64,000 nt of DNA from Halosimplex halophilum. Lineage in GTDB: Archaea > Halobacteriota > Halobacteria > Halobacteriales > Haloarculaceae. Of the stretch, positions 12,436-59,482 are shown in pieces. The DNA lies in NCBI RefSeq assembly GCF_004698125.1, contig NZ_SRHV01000005.1:1-64000 (forward strand), given 5' to 3'. Under the pieces are notes generated by a model. The model ran no database searches. It was not told where the DNA came from and saw only the letters and a list, made by a program, of their open reading frames with translations. Every line of letters begins with the position of its first letter. Positions within the stretch are counted from its first letter, which is position 1. A program made the position numbers and the translations under genes.

Positions 12436-12857
12436 CAGCGATGAAAGGGTGAGGCGCGCTCGCTCTGAGTTGTTTCGGCCGTAGATCTCGGCAAGCGATG
12501 AAAGCCCTCGCCGCGCTCGCTAGCTGGTGTTTCTACCGCAGGAGACAGCAGGTGGTGAAAGCCCTCGCCGCGCTCGCGGTCGCTGAGCGGGATATCCGCG
12601 CTCTCCGCACCACCCGCGCGGATAGTGCCCGCTCAGACGACTACAGTGAACGCGAGCGCGCCTCGCCCTTTCAGTCCGCCAGGGACTGCAACCGCACGGC
12701 ACCGCACCGGACGGCAACCACCCCGCACAGCACCGCAACGGGCCACGAGCCTCCCCAGCCGATTCGCTCCTACCGTCGCTCATCCCTCGCGCGGCTACGG
12801 TCGCGCGCACGAGAGCGCGCTCCAGCGCGCGCCGACCGCACCGCGACCGCGTTCTCC
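12436..12857 (-). repeat. Structured intergenic repeat, copy A (full, reverse orientation)
   Basis: One of four copies of the same composite repeat in the window. On the minus strand it reads: a GC-rich palindromic block ending CGCGAGGGAT; the conserved block CGAATCGGCTGGGGAGGC (within 12742-12766); a variable GCGGT-rich tract; a conserved TCCCTGGCGGACTGAAAG; and a nested inverted repeat. The outer arms are 12651-12673 and 12556-12578. The inner arms are CTGAGCGGG/CCCGCTCAG (12583-12591, 12628-12636) and ATCCGCGC/GCGCGGAT (12594-12601, 12616-12623) around a 14-nt loop. The right outer arm recurs with a 57-nt period (TGAAAG at 12556, 12499 and 12442). Open frames inside it are Arg/Pro-rich and not coding-like. 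Confidence 0.85.
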
Positions 12858-24793: not shown

Positions 24794-25157
24794 CCGGCGC
24801 GCGCCGGAGCGCGCTCTCGTGCGCGCGACGGAACCGCGCGAGGGATTCGCGACTCGCGGGTCGCGAATCGGCTGGGGAGGCTCGTGGCCCGTTGCGGTGC
24901 TGTGCGGTTGCGGTGCCGAGCGGGGCGGTTGCCGTCCGGTGCGGTGCCGTTGCGGTCCCTGGCGGACTGAAAGGGCGAGGCGCGCTCGCGCTCGTATAGT
25001 CGCCTGAGCGGGCCACTATCCGAAGCGGCCCCTGGGCCGCGAGGATATCCCGCTCAGCGACCGCGAGCGGGCCGAGGGCTTTCAGCACTTGCTGTCGACT
25101 GCGGTCGAATCGACAACTAGCGAGCCGAGGGCTTTCAGTGCTCGCCGTCGACTGCGG
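24794..25157 (+). repeat. Structured intergenic repeat, copy B (full, forward orientation)
   Basis: It has the same block order as the other copies: GC-rich palindrome and CGCGAGGGAT; a perfect GATTCGCGAC/GTCGCGAATC hairpin; CGAATCGGCTGGGGAGGC (within 24864-24888); the GCGGT-rich tract; the GGTCCCTGGCGGACTGAAAG block; outer arms at 24968-24990 and 25062-25084; and inner arms CTGAGCGGG/CCCGCTCAG at 25004-25012 and 25049-25057. The innermost stem differs from copies A and C: GCGGCCC pairs with GGGCCGC (25025-25031, 25034-25040). A second partial arm unit follows 53 nt later. It lies between two convergent genes. Confidence 0.85.
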
Positions 25158-37137: not shown

Positions 37138-38366
37138 GCGGGGGTGAACCGGATGCGAGCGGCACCCCGGCGACCGCACAGGACTGGTCGGCGCCCGAGC
37201 GCGAGGTGCGCGCGACCGCTCGCGCGTGTCTCGACTCCGGCGAGCCGGCGGTCCTGGCGACGGTCATCGCCGTCGACGGGCGGGCCTACCGGCGGCCGGG
37301 CGCGAAGATGGTCGTCGCGCCCGGTGGCGGCGAAGTCGGCGGTGCGGCCGGCGACGAACCGGCGGCCGACGCCGAGGCGGACCGCGACCCGGGCCCGGCG
37401 ACCGGCGCGGGCTCGGTGACCGCCGGCTGTCTCGCCGACTCGGTGGTCGAACTGGCGAGCGAGGCGCTGGCCGACGGGGAACCCCGCGTCGAGCGGTTCG
37501 ACCTCCGGGACGACGACGCGTGGGGGCTCGGCGTCGGCTGCGACGGCGTCGTCGACGTGCTGTTCGAACCGCTGGGCGAGCGCCACCGCCCGCTCGTGGC
37601 GTCCGCCGACGAACTGGACGGCGGCCGAACCGTCGCGGTCGCCGTCGAGAGTGGGGACGACCGGGTCGCAGTCGGCGACCGATGGATCGCAGAGGGGAGC
37701 GAGACGGGGGGCTCTGACGGTGACACTACCGCCCGCTCGCTCCCGCCGGAGGTGGCCGCGGGCGTTCCCGACGACGTGGACGGAACCGATTCGGTTCGAG
37801 TCGAAACGGAGGGCGGCGCGGTCCGGCTGTTCGTCGAGCGGGTACGGCCGGCGCCGCGACTGGTGGTGGTCGGGAGCAACGCCGACGTGCGGCCGGTGGT
37901 CGCCTCGGCGCGGGCGGCGGGCTTCCGGGTCGCCGTCGTCGGCTTCCGCGGCGGGCGCGCGACGGACGAGCGTTTCCCGCGGGCCGACCGGGTCGTTGCG
38001 ACCTCGCCGCGGGACCTGCGCGAGGCGGTCGACTTCGGGGCCGACGACTCCGTGGTGCTGATGACCCACAACTTCGTCGACGACCGCGTGGCGCTCGGGG
38101 AGCTACTGGCGACGCCGGTCGACTACGTGGGAGTGATGGGACCGACCGAGCGGTTCGACCGTCTGCGGGCGGCGCTGGGCGACGACGGCGTCGACGTGGA
38201 CGGGGACCGCGAGCGGATCTACGCGCCGGTCGGGCTGGACCTGGGCGGTTCGAGCCCCGCCCAGGTCGCCCACAGCATCGTGGCGGAGGTGCTGGCGGTC
38301 CGCAACGACCGGAGCGGCGGGCACCTCCGCGAAAACGACGGACCGATCCACGCTCGGGACGGCTGA
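37134..38366 (+). CDS. XdhC/CoxI family molybdenum-cofactor maturation protein
   Basis: A 410-aa accessory protein needed for insertion or sulfuration of the molybdenum cofactor in xanthine dehydrogenase-type enzymes. The N-terminal XdhC/CoxI segment has AVLATVIAVDGRAYRRPGAK and GAGSVTAGCLADSVV, then WGLGVGCDGVVDVLFEP. The C-terminal Rossmann domain has RLVVVGSNADVRPV and the conserved DYVGVMGPTERFDRL and PVGLDLGGSSPAQVAHSIV. Two acidic insertions lengthen it beyond typical bacterial XdhC. Its presence implies that a catalytic large subunit exists elsewhere in the genome. Confidence 0.9.
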   Translation: MSGGEPDASGTPATAQDWSAPEREVRATARACLDSGEPAVLATVIAVDGRAYRRPGAKMVVAPGGGEVGGAAGDEPAADAEADRDPGPATGAGSVTAGCLADSVVELASEALADGEPRVERFDLRDDDAWGLGVGCDGVVDVLFEPLGERHRPLVASADELDGGRTVAVAVESGDDRVAVGDRWIAEGSETGGSDGDTTARSLPPEVAAGVPDDVDGTDSVRVETEGGAVRLFVERVRPAPRLVVVGSNADVRPVVASARAAGFRVAVVGFRGGRATDERFPRADRVVATSPRDLREAVDFGADDSVVLMTHNFVDDRVALGELLATPVDYVGVMGPTERFDRLRAALGDDGVDVDGDRERIYAPVGLDLGGSSPAQVAHSIVAEVLAVRNDRSGGHLRENDGPIHARDG

Positions 38367-38411
38367 GCGGCCGCGAGTGGGACCGGATCGAGGGGTCGAC
38401 GGCCGACCGCG

Positions 38412-39194
38412 CTATCGGTTGTCCAGCCGCCAGTCTGGGATGGGGACCTGGCCGCCGTCGACGCGGAGTTCGTGGCCGTTGATGTAGTCCGCCGCGGGCG
38501 AGGCGAGGAACGTCACGCCGTTGGCGATGTCCTCGGGTTCGGCGAAGTGGCCCAGGGGGTTCAGGTCCTGGATCTGTTCGGAGACGGCCTCGGAGAAGCC
38601 CTCGGTCATGCGTGTGTTGACCCAGCCGGGGGCGACGGCGTTCACTCTGATACCCTCGTGGCCGAGTTCGAGCGCGAGGCTCTTGGTCAGGCCCAGGAGG
38701 CTCCACTTGCCCACGTCGTACTGGGGTGACTGGCCGACGGCGTTCTTCGTGTGGATCGAGGTGATGTTGACGATCTTGCCGTAGCCGTCCTCGATCATGC
38801 CGTCGACGACGGCGCGGGTGCAGTTGATCGACCCGAAGAGGTGGACCTCGATGTTCAGCCGGAAGTCGTCGTCGTAGTCCTCGTCGAGGAACGGACCCGC
38901 GTTCCCGACGCCGGCGTTGTTGACCAGGATGTCGACGCTCCCGAGTTCCTCGACGCCGTGTTCGACCATCGCCTCGACCTCGGCCTCGTCGGTCACGTCG
39001 GCGGCGACGCCGACGGCGTCGCTGTCGTCGTCGCGGTCGCGGATGGTCGCCGCGGTGTCTTTCGCCACGTCCTCGTCGAGGTCGTTGACGATCACGTCGG
39101 CGCCGTGGTCGGCGAGTTCGAGCGCGATGGCGCGGCCGTTGCCCCGGCCGCCGCCGGTCACGAGCGCGGTCTTGCCTGTCAGGTCGAGATCCAT
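38412..39194 (-). CDS. SDR family NAD(P)-dependent oxidoreductase
   Basis: A 260-aa classical short-chain dehydrogenase. It has TGGGRGNGRAIA (cofactor loop, residues about 12-23; the usual TGxxxGIG has Asn for Ile), NNAG (about 86-89), the catalytic Ser in NITSIH, and Tyr/Lys in YDVGK. VNAVAPGWVNT follows as in family members. The physiological substrate is unknown. ATG 39194 (MDLDLTGKTAL) gives the standard start. It converges on the XdhC gene with 45 nt between the stops. Confidence 0.93.
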   Translation of the reverse strand: MDLDLTGKTALVTGGGRGNGRAIALELADHGADVIVNDLDEDVAKDTAATIRDRDDDSDAVGVAADVTDEAEVEAMVEHGVEELGSVDILVNNAGVGNAGPFLDEDYDDDFRLNIEVHLFGSINCTRAVVDGMIEDGYGKIVNITSIHTKNAVGQSPQYDVGKWSLLGLTKSLALELGHEGIRVNAVAPGWVNTRMTEGFSEAVSEQIQDLNPLGHFAEPEDIANGVTFLASPAADYINGHELRVDGGQVPIPDWRLDNR

Positions 39195-39820: not shown

Positions 39821-42800
39821 ATGAAACCGGAGGACGAACGCTACTTCGAGCGGCTCGAATCCGGGCTCGACGAGGCCTTCGACGTGGCCGAGCGGGCCCG
39901 CGAGCGCGGCGGCGACCCCACCGACAGCGTCGAGATCCCGGTCGCCCGCGACATGGCCGACCGCGTCGAGAACATCCTCGGCATCGACGGTGTCGCCGAG
40001 CGCGTCCGCGAACTCGAAGGGGAGATGAGCCGCGAGGAGGCCGCGCTGGAACTCGTCTCCGACTTCGTCGACGGCGAGGTCGGCGACTACGACTCCCGCG
40101 CGGGGAAGGTCGAAGGCGCCGTGCGAACGGCGGTCGCCCTGCTCACCGAGGGGGTCGTCGCTGCCCCCATCGAGGGGATCGATCGCGTCGAGATCCTCGA
40201 AAACGACGACGGCACGGAGTTCGTCAACGTCTACTACGCCGGCCCGATCCGCTCGGCCGGCGGGACCGCGCAGGCGCTGTCCGTGCTGGTCGCCGACTAC
40301 GCCCGTGCGATGCTCGACATCGACCAGTACAAGGCCCGCGACGACGAGATCGGCCGCTACGCCGAGGAGATCGACCTCTACGACAAGGAGACGGGCCTGC
40401 AGTACTCCCCGAAGGAGAAAGAGAGCAAGTTCATCGCCGAGCACATGCCGATCATGCTCGACGGGGAGGCCACCGGCGACGAGGAGGTGTCGGGCTACCG
40501 GGACCTCGAACGGGTCGACTCAAACTCCGCCCGCGGCGGGATGTGTCTCGTCATGGCCGAGGGGATCGCGCTGAAGGCCCCGAAGATCCAGCGCTACACC
40601 AGGAATCTCGACGAGGTCGACTGGCCGTGGCTGCAGGACCTCATCGACGGGACCATCGGGAAAGATGAGGGGAACGCCGACGACGGCGAAGACGAGGCAG
40701 AGGACGGCGAGGACGCTGACGCCGAGAGTGACGAAGACGGCGACGAACAGGCCGACGAGCCCGCGGGGCCGCCCCGTCCCGAGCCCTCGAAGAAGTTCCT
40801 CCGGGATCTGATCGCGGGCCGGCCGGTCTTCTCGCACCCGAGCGAGGCCGGGGGCTTCCGCCTGCGCTACGGCCGGGCGCGCAACCACGGCAACGCCACC
40901 GCCGGCGTCCACCCGGCGACGATGCACCTCGTCGACGACTTCCTCGCGACCGGGACCCAGATCAAGACCGAGCGGCCCGGCAAGGCAGCGGGGGTCGTCC
41001 CCGTCGACACCATCGAGGGCCCGACGGTTCGACTCGCCAACGGCGAGGTGCGGCGCATCGACGACCCCGAGGAGGCCCTCGAAGTTCGGAACGGCGTCGA
41101 GAAGGTGATCGATCTGGGCGAGTACCTCGTCAACTACGGCGAGTTCGTCGAGAACAACCACCCGCTGGCGCCCGCCTCCTACACCGTCGAGTGGTGGGCC
41201 CAGGAGTTCGACGACGCCGGCGCCGACGTGCAGGCGATGCGCGACTCCCTGGACGTGGACCTGGCCGATCCGAGCGCCGAGGAAGCCCTGGACTGGGTCG
41301 ACGAGTACGACGCGCCGCTGCACCCGAAGTACACCTACTGCTGGCACGACCTGTCCGTCGACGAAGTCTGTGCGCTGGCGGACGCCGTGGAACAGGGGCG
41401 AGTCGCGCAGACGGACGGCGCCGTCGTCCGCGACCCCGACGACTCCGACGACGGCGGGCGCGCGAGCGACGACGCCGCGACACAGCACGACGCCGCGGCC
41501 GACGGCCACGACCGCGACGCGGGCGCCGCGGCCGCGGGCGATCTGGTGATCCCCCGCTCGGAGACCGTGCGCGAGGCCGTCGAGCACCTCCTCGTCGAGC
41601 ACACCCAGACCGAGGACACCCTCGTCGTCCCCGACTGGCGCCCGCTCGCGCGGACGCTCGGGTTCGACGACTCCCTGGAGCGCGAGTGGACGCCCGACGA
41701 CCTCTCGGAACGGGCCCGCACCTACGGCGGCGGCGAGGCCAGCGACGCGCAACTGGACTCCTCCGCGGCCTCCACCGAGGACGGCGCCAACGCTATCCTC
41801 GCCGTCAACGAGATCGCGCCCTTCGACGTGCGCGAGCGGGCGCCCACCCGTATCGGCAACCGGATGGGCCGCCCCGAGAAGTCCGAGAAGCGCGACCTCT
41901 CGCCGGCGGTCCACACCCTCTTCCCGATCGGCGAGGCGGGCGGCTCCCAGCGGAAGGTCGGCGACGCCGCCGTCGCCGGCGACAGCTACGACGACTCCCA
42001 GGGCAAAGTCGAACTCGAAGTCGGCCGCCAGGAGTGTACGGAGTGCGGCGAGCGGACGTACAAACCGCGCTGTCCCGACTGCGGCGGCGTCTGCGAGGCC
42101 GTCTACGTCTGCCCCGACTGCGACCACGAGGTCGAACCCGACGAGTCCGGGCGCGCGGAGTGTAGCCGCTGCGAGACGCTCGCTCGCCCCACCCAGACGA
42201 AGGTGGTCGACGTGAACGAGGAGTTCAAGTCGGCGCTGGCGAACCTCAACGAGCGTCCCACCGCCTACGACGCGCTGAAGGCGGTCAAGGGGCTCTCCTC
42301 CGAGCAGAAGACGCCCGAGCCCATGGAGAAGGGGATCCTCCGGGCGAAACACGGCGTCTCGGCGTTCAAGGACGGCACCGTCCGCTACGACATGACCGAC
42401 CTGCCCGTCACGGCCGTCCGTCCCTCCGAACTCGACGTGACCGCCGAGGCGTTCCGGGCGCTCGGGTACCAGGCGGACATCCACGGCCAGCCCCTCCAGC
42501 ACGACGACCAGCTCGTCGAGCTGAACGTCCAGGACGTGGTGCTCTCGGAGGGCGCCGCCGAGCACATGCTCAAGACCGCCGACTTCGTCGACGACCTGCT
42601 GGAATCGTACTACGGCCTCGAACCGTTCTACGAACTGGAGGAACGCGACGACCTCGTTGGGGAACTGGTCTTCGGGATGGCGCCACACACCAGCGCGGCG
42701 ACCGTCGGCCGTATTGTCGGATTCACGACAGCAGCAGTCGGGTACGCTCACCCCTATTTCCACGCCGCGAAACGCCGGAACTGCTTCCACCCGGACACGA

Positions 42801-45085
42801 AAGTCTGGTACGAGGACGAGGACGGCGCGCTCAACCACGAGTCGATCGAGGCTCTAGTCGAGGGATATCTCGACCCCGAAACTGCCGAACGCGACGAATT
42901 CGGGACGCTCGTGGACGACCTCGACCATCTCGGCGGTGAGCTCTCCGTTCCCTCCTTCGACAACGGCGGTTCGCAGTCCACACAGCCAGTAGAGGCGCTC
43001 AGCAAGCATCCAGCACCGGACCACCTCGTCGAAGTCCGGACCGAGTCCGGTCGAGAGCTAACGGTGACGCCCGACCACGATGTCCACATCTACGATCAGG
43101 ACCTCGGCCGGATGGTCTCCGTGCCCGCGGGGAAACTCGACGAGTCCGATTGTCTCGTCACACCGAAACACCTCGACAGCACCGATCCGGGCGACGAGCC
43201 GAAACGGTTCGACCTCCTCGAAGTATTCATCGAGTCCGACGTTGTCGACGACGACCGGTTGATGGTCAAAGGGCTGGACAAGGACCGCCTGTACGACCGC
43301 TTCCAACGCCGCCTCGCCGACGAGTGGGAGGGCCGTTTCTACCCGCTCCAGAGCACGGCCGACTATCTTGGACTCACGAAAAAGACGCTGAGCAACTACC
43401 TCTATCGGGAGAGCATCCCGGTCGCGTTGCTGAGTCGCTTCTTCGACTCGACGGCCGACCTGCTCGCGTTCGTTCCGGACGGCGCGACACTCGGCGTCAA
43501 ACGCGACGGGACGGAGATCGACCGGTACGTCACTCTCGACGAGCGTGTCGCGACGCTTCTGGGGTACTACGCCGCCGAGGGATTCGCTCGGGTTCAGGAC
43601 ACTCCCAAGGGGAAGATCCACCAGACGACAGTCTGTGGCACGGACGACGAGGCGCGGGAGTTCTTCCTCGACGTACTGTCGGAGGAGTTCGGCGTCGACC
43701 CGTACGCCGAGAACCACGCGAAGATCACCGTCTCGGGCCGATTGCTCCGGGGGTTCTTCGATACCGTGCTGGACGCTGGCTGTTTCGCCCATTCCAAGCG
43801 GGTCCCGCAGTGTATCTTCGACTCGCCCGACCGGATTGTCGGCGCCTACCTCGCTGGATACTTCAGTGGCGACGGCACCGCCGACGGACAGGCCCCTCGC
43901 GTTTCGGCGACGACAGTGAGTCCGGAACTCAAGTCCGATCTGCTCGCGTTGCTGACCCGACTGGGAATCACCGCGACGGTCAACCACACGGAACCGGTGG
44001 CGCTCTCCGACGCGTTCCCGGAGTTCTACGACGAAGGCGACGAGTCGCGCTCGCGCCACAGCTACGAGATAACCGTCTCCCGGGACGACGCAGTTCGGTT
44101 CGCCGACCGCGTCGGGTTCCACCTCTCCGAGAAGGACGACCGCCTCCGCAGACAGGTCGGCGAACGCGAATCCACCGGCCGCCACGCGTATGTCTTCGAC
44201 GGTGGGGCCAGCGAGTACCACCTCGATCCGGTCCAGGCGGTTTCGTACGTCGAATCCGACACCGAGCACGTTTACTGTCTCACCGTCGCGGAGAACCACT
44301 CGCTCGTCGCGGGAGACCTATCGGTCAAGCAATGTGACGGCGACGAAGACTGCGTGATGCTTCTGATGGACGGGCTGCTCAACTTCTCGAAGCAGTTCCT
44401 GCCGGACCAGCGCGGCGGCCAGATGGACGCGCCGCTGGTCATGTCCTCGCGGATCGACCCGGCGGAGATCGACGACGAGGCCCACAACGTCGACATCATG
44501 CGGGAGTACCCACGGGAGTTCTACGAGGCGACCCGCGAACTCGCGGACCCCGAGGACGTGGAGGACGTGATGACCATCGCTGAGGAGACGCTGGGCACCG
44601 ACGAGGAGTACACCGGTTTCGACCACACCCACGACACGACGAACATCGCCGCGGGGCCGGACCTCTCGGCGTACAAGACGCTGGGGTCGATGGAGGAGAA
44701 GATGGACGCCCAGCTGGATCTGTCGCGGAAGATCCGTGCGGTCGACGAGACGGACGTGGCCGAGCGGATCATCGAGTACCACTTCCTGCCGGACCTCATC
44801 GGGAACCTGCGGGCCTTTTCCCGGCAGGACGTGCGCTGTCTGGACTGCGGCGAGAAGTACCGGCGGATGCCCCTGACCGGCGACTGCCGGGAGTGCGGCG
44901 GCCAGGTCAACCTCACCGTCCACGAGGGGTCGGTCAACAAGTACATCGAGACGGCGACCCGCGTCGCCGAGGAGTTCGGCTGCCGCACCTACACGAAACA
45001 GCGGCTCGAAGTGCTCGAACGGTCGATCAACCGCGTCTTCGAGGACGACACCAACAAGCAGTCCGGCATCGCCGACTTCATGTGA
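39821..45085 (+). CDS. polC: DNA polymerase D large subunit DP2 with one intein
   Basis: The catalytic subunit of the archaeal replicative polymerase PolD. The precursor is 1754 aa; removing the 517-aa intein (residues 988-1504) leaves an extein of 1237 aa, normal for DP2. The catalytic DGD motif is in RRN/CDGDEDCVMLLMDG, and the intein is inserted directly before it. Zinc sites are CTECGERTYKPRCPDCGG (about residue 738) with two further Cys pairs, and CLDCG...DCRECGG (about 1673-1690). Acidic low-complexity insertions lie near residues 285-320 and 530-570. The small subunit DP1 is not in the window. Repeat copy C begins immediately after the stop. Confidence 0.96.
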   Translation: MKPEDERYFERLESGLDEAFDVAERARERGGDPTDSVEIPVARDMADRVENILGIDGVAERVRELEGEMSREEAALELVSDFVDGEVGDYDSRAGKVEGAVRTAVALLTEGVVAAPIEGIDRVEILENDDGTEFVNVYYAGPIRSAGGTAQALSVLVADYARAMLDIDQYKARDDEIGRYAEEIDLYDKETGLQYSPKEKESKFIAEHMPIMLDGEATGDEEVSGYRDLERVDSNSARGGMCLVMAEGIALKAPKIQRYTRNLDEVDWPWLQDLIDGTIGKDEGNADDGEDEAEDGEDADAESDEDGDEQADEPAGPPRPEPSKKFLRDLIAGRPVFSHPSEAGGFRLRYGRARNHGNATAGVHPATMHLVDDFLATGTQIKTERPGKAAGVVPVDTIEGPTVRLANGEVRRIDDPEEALEVRNGVEKVIDLGEYLVNYGEFVENNHPLAPASYTVEWWAQEFDDAGADVQAMRDSLDVDLADPSAEEALDWVDEYDAPLHPKYTYCWHDLSVDEVCALADAVEQGRVAQTDGAVVRDPDDSDDGGRASDDAATQHDAAADGHDRDAGAAAAGDLVIPRSETVREAVEHLLVEHTQTEDTLVVPDWRPLARTLGFDDSLEREWTPDDLSERARTYGGGEASDAQLDSSAASTEDGANAILAVNEIAPFDVRERAPTRIGNRMGRPEKSEKRDLSPAVHTLFPIGEAGGSQRKVGDAAVAGDSYDDSQGKVELEVGRQECTECGERTYKPRCPDCGGVCEAVYVCPDCDHEVEPDESGRAECSRCETLARPTQTKVVDVNEEFKSALANLNERPTAYDALKAVKGLSSEQKTPEPMEKGILRAKHGVSAFKDGTVRYDMTDLPVTAVRPSELDVTAEAFRALGYQADIHGQPLQHDDQLVELNVQDVVLSEGAAEHMLKTADFVDDLLESYYGLEPFYELEERDDLVGELVFGMAPHTSAATVGRIVGFTTAAVGYAHPYFHAAKRRNCFHPDTKVWYEDEDGALNHESIEALVEGYLDPETAERDEFGTLVDDLDHLGGELSVPSFDNGGSQSTQPVEALSKHPAPDHLVEVRTESGRELTVTPDHDVHIYDQDLGRMVSVPAGKLDESDCLVTPKHLDSTDPGDEPKRFDLLEVFIESDVVDDDRLMVKGLDKDRLYDRFQRRLADEWEGRFYPLQSTADYLGLTKKTLSNYLYRESIPVALLSRFFDSTADLLAFVPDGATLGVKRDGTEIDRYVTLDERVATLLGYYAAEGFARVQDTPKGKIHQTTVCGTDDEAREFFLDVLSEEFGVDPYAENHAKITVSGRLLRGFFDTVLDAGCFAHSKRVPQCIFDSPDRIVGAYLAGYFSGDGTADGQAPRVSATTVSPELKSDLLALLTRLGITATVNHTEPVALSDAFPEFYDEGDESRSRHSYEITVSRDDAVRFADRVGFHLSEKDDRLRRQVGERESTGRHAYVFDGGASEYHLDPVQAVSYVESDTEHVYCLTVAENHSLVAGDLSVKQCDGDEDCVMLLMDGLLNFSKQFLPDQRGGQMDAPLVMSSRIDPAEIDDEAHNVDIMREYPREFYEATRELADPEDVEDVMTIAEETLGTDEEYTGFDHTHDTTNIAAGPDLSAYKTLGSMEEKMDAQLDLSRKIRAVDETDVAERIIEYHFLPDLIGNLRAFSRQDVRCLDCGEKYRRMPLTGDCRECGGQVNLTVHEGSVNKYIETATRVAEEFGCRTYTKQRLEVLERSINRVFEDDTNKQSGIADFM
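42782..44332 (+). mobile_element. PolC intein with LAGLIDADG homing endonuclease
   Basis: A 517-residue in-frame intein. Block A begins at Cys988 (CFHPDTKVW) and block B is LTVTPDHDVHIYD. The two LAGLIDADG motifs of a DOD endonuclease are LLGYYAAEG and LAGYFSGDG, each with an acidic residue in place. Block F is VYCLTVAENHSLVAG. The C-terminal junction is SVKQ/CDGD, so the last intein residue is Gln and the +1 extein residue is Cys. The sequence is visibly less GC-rich than the flanking extein (for example near 42960-43010 and 43600-43630), consistent with horizontal arrival. Confidence 0.93.
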
Positions 45086-45425
45086 GCGGTTGCGGTGCGG
45101 TCGGCGCGTGCTGTCGCGCGCGTTCATGCGCGCGACCGTAGCCGCGCGAGGGATTCACGACTCGTGTGTCGCGAATCGGCTGGGGAGGCTCGTGGCTGTC
45201 TGCGGTGCTGTGCAGGGCAGTCGCGGTGCCGTGCTGTGCAGTTGCGGTCCCTGGCGGACTGAACGGGCGAGGCGCGCTCGCGCTTGTGTAGTCGCCTGAG
45301 CGGGCCACTATCCGCGCGGGCGGTGCAGAGAGCGCGGATATCCCGCTCAGCGACCGCGAGCGCGCCGAGAGCTTTCATCGCTTGTTGTCCCCTGCGGTAC
45401 CGTCGCCAGCTAGCGTGCGAATCGA
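45086..45425 (+). repeat. Structured intergenic repeat, copy C (full, forward orientation)
   Basis: It starts at the base after the polC stop. The conserved CGAATCGGCTGGGGAGGC block is within 45172-45196, followed by a GCGGT-rich tract and GGTCCCTGGCGGACTGAA. Outer arms are 45260-45282 and 45355-45377. Inner arms are CTGAGCGGG/CCCGCTCAG at 45296-45304 and 45342-45350, and ATCCGCGC/GCGCGGAT at 45310-45317 and 45332-45339, with a 14-nt loop. Only one complete right-arm unit is present. It lies between convergent genes. Confidence 0.85.
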
Positions 45426-59295: not shown

Positions 59296-59482
59296 GGTCG
59301 GCTTGCGCTGGAGCGCGCTTTCATGCGCGCGACGAGATCGCGCGAGGGATGAGCACCGCACGCCGCAGGCGCGCGGAGCGCAATCGGCTGGGGAGGTATG
59401 TGGCCGTCTGCGGTGTTATGCGGGGCAGTGCGGTTGCGGTGCCGTGCGGTGCTGTGCGGGACGGTCCCTGGCGGGCTGAAAG
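59296..59482 (+). repeat. Structured intergenic repeat, copy D (truncated, forward orientation)
   Basis: It contains the GC-rich palindromic block (GAGCGCGCTTTCATGCGCGCGAC), here given only to its ends, then GCGCGAGGGAT, the shared AATCGGCTGGGGAGG (within 59380-59404), a GCGGT-rich tract and GGTCCCTGGCGGGCTGAAAG (59463-59482). It stops abruptly there: the nested hairpin and right arms of copies A-C are missing. It lies between two divergent genes. Confidence 0.75.

Follow-up and report, generated by a model that had tools for sequence, protein, structure and literature searches.

What is the hairpin-forming repeat that recurs in this haloarchaeal DNA, and how do its arms stay paired while their bases change? 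The window analyzed here comprises 64,000 nucleotides (contig C3:1-64000) of a 4.47-Mb Halosimplex genome (G000, hereafter the own genome). The detailed work on this genome drew on contig C3 and on chosen stretches elsewhere. The initial annotation had reported three full copies of the repeat, and all three were recovered: copy A at 12556-12680 on the minus strand, and copies B (24961-25084) and C (45253-45377) on the plus strand. The 15-mer AATCGGCTGGGGAGG occurs four times in the window, against 0.10 matches expected by chance, and CTGAGCGGG is found six times, forming three inverted pairs, where 1.2 would be expected. The plus strand of the copy hairpins folds 2.9-5.3 standard deviations better than shuffled sequences (z values of -2.9 to -5.3). 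These data show that chance does not account for the copies in the window.

All features of copy B lie on the plus strand. The left module (24796-24880) comprises a GGCGCGCGC boundary, a hairpin CGGAGCGCGC..GCGCGCGACGG, CCGCGCGAGGG, a hairpin ATTCGCGAC-TCGCGG-GTCGCGAAT (24845-24868) and the constant AATCGGCTGGGGAGG (24866-24880). A variable linker of TGCGGT-type repeats (24881-24957) leads to the unpaired conserved 5′ leader CCTGGCGGACT (24958-24968), which is part of the left end box. The class I hairpin (24969-25083) is closed by pairing of GAAAG (24969-24973) with CTTTC (25079-25083). Within it are found the internal loop GGCGA/GAGGG, an outer stem in which GGCGCGCTCGCG pairs with CGCGAGCGGGCC, a lower stem formed by CTGAGCGGG (25004-25012) and CCCGCTCAG (25049-25057), a pairing of TATCC (25017-25021) with GGATA (25043-25047), and an apex where GCGGCCC pairs with GGGCCGC (25034-25040). 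The tail (25084-25145) is a degenerate tandem array with a period of about 55 nt and carries a second right box, GGGCTTTCA, at 25129-25137.

The other copies in the window share this layout to different extents. On the minus strand, the copy A hairpin (12556-12680) has an apex of type (i), ATCCGCGC..GCGCGGAT; its left module (12750-12833) ends in AATCGGCTGGGGAGG (12750-12764) and its tail (12436-12555) holds two further right-box units with a period of 57. The copy C hairpin (45253-45377, plus strand) also has an apex of type (i), with the left box TGAACG, and its left module (45103-45188) ends in AATCGGCTGGGGAGG at 45174-45188. A partial copy D (59300-59482, plus strand) consists of a left module, a linker and a truncated left box, CCTGGCGGGCTGAAAG, without hairpin. 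An empty site is present at 38366-38412, where two convergent genes are separated by 45 bp; in H. pelagicum the orthologous gap measures about 400 bp (G003:644402-644803) and contains a full element.

The minimal unit of the element consists of a conserved leader with the left box, a variable hairpin and the right box. It measures about 100-135 nt, and its arms pair from end to end. The end boxes common to the copies, TGGYGGACTGAAAGGG and GGGCTTTC, flank a long hairpin, whose interior belongs to class I or class II. Leader and left box together read TGGYGGACTGAAAGGGCGAGGC; in the element scheme they are given as CCTGGYGGACTGAAAGGG, with GGGCTTTC as right box, and the right box GCCGAGGGCTTTC forms the sharp 3′ end. 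GAAAG/CTTTC is the sole strictly inverted part at the ends. It adjoins a purine-rich, non-complementary loop, GGCGA/GAGGG, which is kept in most genera and reads GGG/GGG in several Halorussus species. Outer arms of about 23 nt, as first described, are thus present, but they are not fully complementary, being interrupted by this conserved internal loop (GGCGA on the left, GAGGG on the right); about half of the own-genome copies also have a G.G mismatch in the outer stem. Class I interiors have the form ..GTCG-stem-CTATCC..GGATAT-stem-CGAC.., and in class II CAAGCAC faces GCGCAGC. At least five apex types were distinguished in the own genome.

Halosimplex copies carry several additions to this unit. 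The left module, rich in exchangeable hairpins, comes with its TGCGGT-type linker; double-hairpin inserts, each about 50 nt long, may be present at fixed positions; and tandem right-box units with a length of about 57 nt make up the tail. Two double-hairpin inserts turned out to be the same module, with both stems altered in a compensated manner (GTCTTCGCG..CGAAGGCTCGTCAGAGC.. versus GTCCGCGCG..CGCGGGCTCGGGAGAGC..). A CRISPR-like nature of the tail was rejected, because the 57-nt units are degenerate, with mutually related spacers. The sequence downstream of the tandem units (about 57-60 nt; window positions 12436-12577 and 25084-25145) seems species- or locus-specific, as if locally duplicated.

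From 26 copies a covariance model (R1) of the hairpin was built, and it scored 84 matches in the own genome; once opposite-strand and weak ones are removed, about 74 of these are real. H. pelagicum gave 96 matches. The expectation that a whole genome holds many copies, and not just these few, was therefore borne out. Averaged over the genome, a copy occurs about every 60 kb, so that the window is richer than average. The element was present in all seven Halosimplex congeners (7/7), and on the H. pelagicum chromosome its copies are intergenic and fairly evenly spread. Contigs C4-C7 of the own genome (about 290 kb) gave no model match where about five were expected; C4 has a TnpB gene, and these contigs may be recently acquired plasmids.

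Exact searching of the GTDB genomes with the left box yielded at least 120 stretches. Among the matches listed, all but two were haloarchaeal, the two bacterial ones being chance matches, and the genera included Halosimplex, Halorussus, Natronomonas, Halonotius, Haloarcula, Haladaptatus, Natronolimnohabitans and further lineages. With a second covariance model (R2; 42 sequences from several genera), matches were obtained in 42 of 117 Halobacteriales genomes, which represent 22 of the 49 genera covered; copy numbers reach at least 20-30 per genome in Halosimplex, Halorussus and a third genus; many related genera have no element. The patchy spread within genera suggested by the exact left-box pattern was discarded as an artefact of strictness, since the covariance model gives at least 30 copies in species that had scored zero. 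Haloarchaeal plasmids contain a few copies. Viral carriage was rejected: a search of 2.9 million viral contigs gave one exact match, a chance match without the element. In genus g33, several 3-kb loci show local clustering: a pair of copies lies within about 1.5 kb, in some cases with opposite orientations.

It had been proposed to examine whether further copies covary significantly or instead show random changes that break pairing. The former was observed. In 42 class I hairpins scored on a hand-written structure, 96.9% of the cells were paired, against 89.1% in shuffled and 34-47% in slid controls, and both-side changes occurred in 94 cells against 22 in shuffled ones. For 76 mostly non-Halosimplex copies, in an alignment fitted to the covariance model, which favours pairing, 97.6% of the cells were paired (32-49% in slid controls) and both-side changes were found at 33 of 35 pairs (339 cells against 92 shuffled; 0/500); the hand-written-structure set agrees with this alignment on covariation. 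Because covariation far exceeds the shuffled and slid controls, we conclude that pairing itself is preserved.

The manner of change differs between parts of the hairpin. The innermost stem of copy B had been thought to be a compensated variant of that of copies A and C. It does differ, and pairing is kept, but the difference is not one of compensated substitutions: the apex ATCC-GAA-GCGGCCC..GGGCCGC-GA-GGAT is a distinct cassette, replaced as a whole, which is found also in about ten other own-genome copies. True base-by-base covariation was observed in other species as well as in the lower stem. At a site common to the own genome and H. pelagicum, the lower stem reads TGAGCGAC/GTCGCTCA in the former and CGAGCGAC/GTCGCTCG in the latter, a compensatory difference in which a T-A pair became C-G. 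In the own genome, the two lower-stem arms match each other (GAC-GTC, GGG-CCC), with few discordant cases, irrespective of apex type.

The position of the copies relative to genes was determined with genes called by a purpose-written codon model. All 64 own-genome copies with context are intergenic (32 in tandem, 19 in divergent and 13 in convergent gaps), with no orientation preference relative to genes (33:31); none was seen in other genera either (37:26, p=0.21), and a terminator or 3′-UTR role was rejected on this ground. Outside Halosimplex, the distance to start codons is usually about 80-100 nt or more, but stops may be as near as 25-60 nt, and the flanking genes are ordinary and diverse. 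In 105 flanking proteins we found 149 Pfam families, none more than twice, which indicates that there is no partner gene, and no transposase recurs among the flanking genes. A replication-strand bias was also rejected (runs test on the H. pelagicum chromosome, z=-0.4).

Comparison of orthologous sites shows that copies are gained and lost between congeners. Site A is occupied only in the own genome and site B only there and in G004; at site C, a copy is present in G000, G003 and G007 and lacking in G002, G004 and G005, and G006 retains a remnant of the right box. At one orthologous intergenic site in genus g43, the same boxes enclose a class I, class II or shortened interior in seven species and are fused without interior in an eighth (G164), and in three species 16-21 nt stand in place of the element. 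Of the 12 resolvable species, 8 have this site occupied, and the boxes there look better conserved than the flanks, which together could mean host selection. The most similar pair in the own genome is 93% identical, and there is thus no sign of a recent burst. No target-site duplication or transposition intermediate was seen between the available species, whose flanks are too diverged to define insertion ends.

Copies are also associated with rearrangements. Over 400 kb compared with H. pelagicum, a copy was found at 11 of 16 synteny breaks against 7 of 30 collinear gaps (p=0.004), a comparison from which one bias was not removed, the breakpoint gaps being longer than the collinear ones, so that copies may lie there by chance. 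The gene downstream of copy B is, in H. pelagicum, the one that follows the site-C copy. Where the own genome has a copy at C3:110650-111090, the length differs by 27.7 kb from the corresponding region G003:784405-812121. The gene preceding copy C (window 39821-45085) encodes 1754 aa and was read as the DNA polymerase II large subunit; its orthologue in G007 has about 1.5 kb inserted within the coding region, and the locus in G001 shows an intein-like junction (..LVAEDLFVGQ|CDGDED). To judge from these sequences, the gene probably carries a polymorphic intein.

What, then, keeps the arms paired? The initial annotation had pointed to selection on a folded RNA or a DNA cruciform; the preserved pairing stands, and neither an RNA gene nor a symmetric cruciform is favoured. 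As a structured RNA, the plus strand would be transcribed by read-through or from a nearby gene, the hairpin would act in the RNA in 3′-end protection, processing or protein binding, and covariation would reflect selection on the RNA fold. The very strong covariation fits this explanation, as do the conserved unpaired nucleotides, including CAAGCAC/GCGCAGC of class II, and the mismatches. Those tolerated by a single plus strand (G.T, G.G, G.A) number 85 against 17 for their complements (A.C, C.C, C.T), or 18:7 when counted by columns (p=0.04). In the stems, G.T exceeds A.C by 46:11 and G.G exceeds C.C by 29:2, as expected if the plus strand folds. Since the G.T excess derived from RNAalifold is biased by column choice, strand-symmetric and hand-written structures were used instead (26:6); strand-symmetric choices gave the same direction of asymmetry, weaker. 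One strand thus matters more, which argues against a symmetric cruciform and indicates some single-strand folding constraint; an RNA role is possible. However, wobble G.T pairs occupy 46 of 2615 stem cells (1.8%) against 80 of 837 (9.6%) in the tRNAs of the same sequences, a five-fold difference, and C-G to G-C switches occur with few wobble intermediates. RNA selection alone accounts less well for such scarcity of wobbles than would a single step in which both arms are replaced or one arm is copied from its partner. Also against a structured RNA, no TATA-like or AT-rich promoter-like signal was seen upstream of the element, many copies lie in divergent gaps with no bias to the downstream side of same-strand genes, and Rfam 15 gave no match above the gathering score on the window or 14 other loci (a loose search of four own-genome loci gave three matches, all outside the element). 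An independent RNA gene was rejected for want of a promoter-like signal and an Rfam match, and the wobble frequency and lack of orientation preference speak likewise against a structured non-coding RNA gene. We regard an RNA function in the wider sense as doubtful, though with an appreciable chance of being right.

Two other explanations place the function in DNA. The copies could be chromosomal sites at which a DNA-binding, nucleoid-organizing or replication/repair protein recognizes an extruded hairpin or cruciform. Their intergenic, fairly even spread in H. pelagicum and the conserved end boxes around variable stems would suit such sites, but the strand asymmetry of mismatches argues against a symmetric cruciform, copies come and go between congeners, and the element is absent from many related genera and from contigs C4-C7; this makes the explanation improbable. 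Alternatively, they could be REP/REPIN-type elements mobilized by a Y1 (HUH) transposase via single-stranded DNA, as the short conserved 5′ leader adjoining an imperfect hairpin, the tens to hundreds of intergenic copies and the single-strand asymmetry might suggest. Yet G005 (99% complete) has no Y1_Tnp match (PF01797) while BLAST, with the best 20 candidates scored, gives at least 26 matches there; the 94.7 kb around 30 Halosimplex TnpB genes (within 1.5 kb of each) contain no intact end-box pair, the one lone right-box-like 11-mer lying within a coding region; and no run of like strands occurs along the H. pelagicum chromosome. A RAYT/HUH or IS605/PATE origin was rejected on the first two of these grounds, and mobilization by Y1 is most improbable.

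Among a mobile element, a structured non-coding RNA and a chromosome-organizing site, the three possibilities raised at the outset, a mobile or recombining element fits best. The repeat, found across haloarchaea, is probably a dispersed, non-coding, intergenic family of imperfect palindromes of REP/SMR type, so far unnamed, which recombines and is itself passive and structure-dependent. Copies would occasionally be placed at new intergenic sites by a putative trans-acting enzyme acting on the folded end boxes. Once in place, they would offer one another homology, and hairpins, apices and double-hairpin inserts would be exchanged between loci by gene conversion, as suggested by the switching of interiors at one site and the free assortment of apices. 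Crossing over between copies may reshuffle the chromosome, a step to which the breakpoints at copies point. Pairing would be kept because a change would enter the two arms at once, through replacement of a cassette or correction templated by the hairpin, and also because folding of the plus strand would be required. Haloarchaeal cells are polyploid with efficient gene conversion, and recombination in such cells would keep the copies similar and remodel them. An autonomous parent with a gene between inverted boxes was rejected, the opposite-box loci holding ordinary host genes or nothing. A more active scheme, which we consider unlikely, has the end boxes marking fixed slots in which the interior hairpin is actively swapped between two unrelated classes; the family, maintained throughout the class Halobacteria, would then be either a hairpin-cassette exchange system of archaea or a SINE-like element copied through RNA.

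The passive recombining family has partial counterparts among known repeats. Mitochondrial double-hairpin elements are built of nested hairpin modules. Repetitive hairpin-forming and double-hairpin elements invade the intergenic regions of mitochondrial DNA (PMC2800124); the present element differs in its archaeal host, unrelated sequence and position-specific inserts. SMR-A/B of Haloquadratum walsbyi are non-coding, about 110 bp long, with prominent inverted arms and up to 54 copies, more than 95% identical and inserted into PATEs/IS605 elements without target duplication; no related transposon is known and their mobilization was called enigmatic (PMC3119063). Our element is likewise haloarchaeal and non-coding, with inverted arms and a comparable unit (about 100-135 nt versus about 80-110 bp for SMR), without partner gene and unrelated to transposons as checked against Y1_Tnp and TnpB loci. 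Unlike SMR, its copies reach no more than 93% identity, have a mosaic make-up and occur in many genera, and they lie in ordinary intergenic gaps (64/64 in the own genome), not inside mobile elements. Haloarchaeal PATEs are also non-coding, palindromic, heterogeneous and multicopy, with a conserved terminal oligonucleotide and palindromes derived from IS605-type ends (PMC3119063); here, in contrast, a single palindrome spans the whole element, and end-box pairs are lacking around the TnpB genes. REP/BIME/REPIN sequences are extragenic imperfect hairpins placed at random relative to genes in modular arrays (PMC3116915), traits that the element shares, but REPINs pair with a RAYT in the genome (PMC3116915), whereas the element-rich G005 has no Y1_Tnp. 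MITEs have terminal inverted repeats in common with a transposon of the host; in the element only GAAAG/CTTTC is strictly inverted at the ends, and no transposase recurs among the flanking genes examined. Since it fails a tested defining feature of each, the element was placed in no SMR, PATE or REPIN-RAYT class. The earlier remark that no named family matches holds: Rfam 15 has no match, the sequences were not found for haloarchaea in the openly readable papers searched, and the element appears to be without a name in the searchable literature.

The finding adds an abundant, structured and covarying element, present in at least 22 haloarchaeal genera, as a haloarchaeal counterpart of the bacterial REP/BIME elements. 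Because cultivable genera (Halorussus, Haloarcula, Halosimplex) carry it, transcription, binding proteins and mobility are directly testable. The element offers a natural case in which covariation due to RNA selection could be told apart from covariation due to DNA palindrome correction, a general pitfall in RNA discovery, and it is a candidate cause of the fast rearrangement of haloarchaeal genomes.
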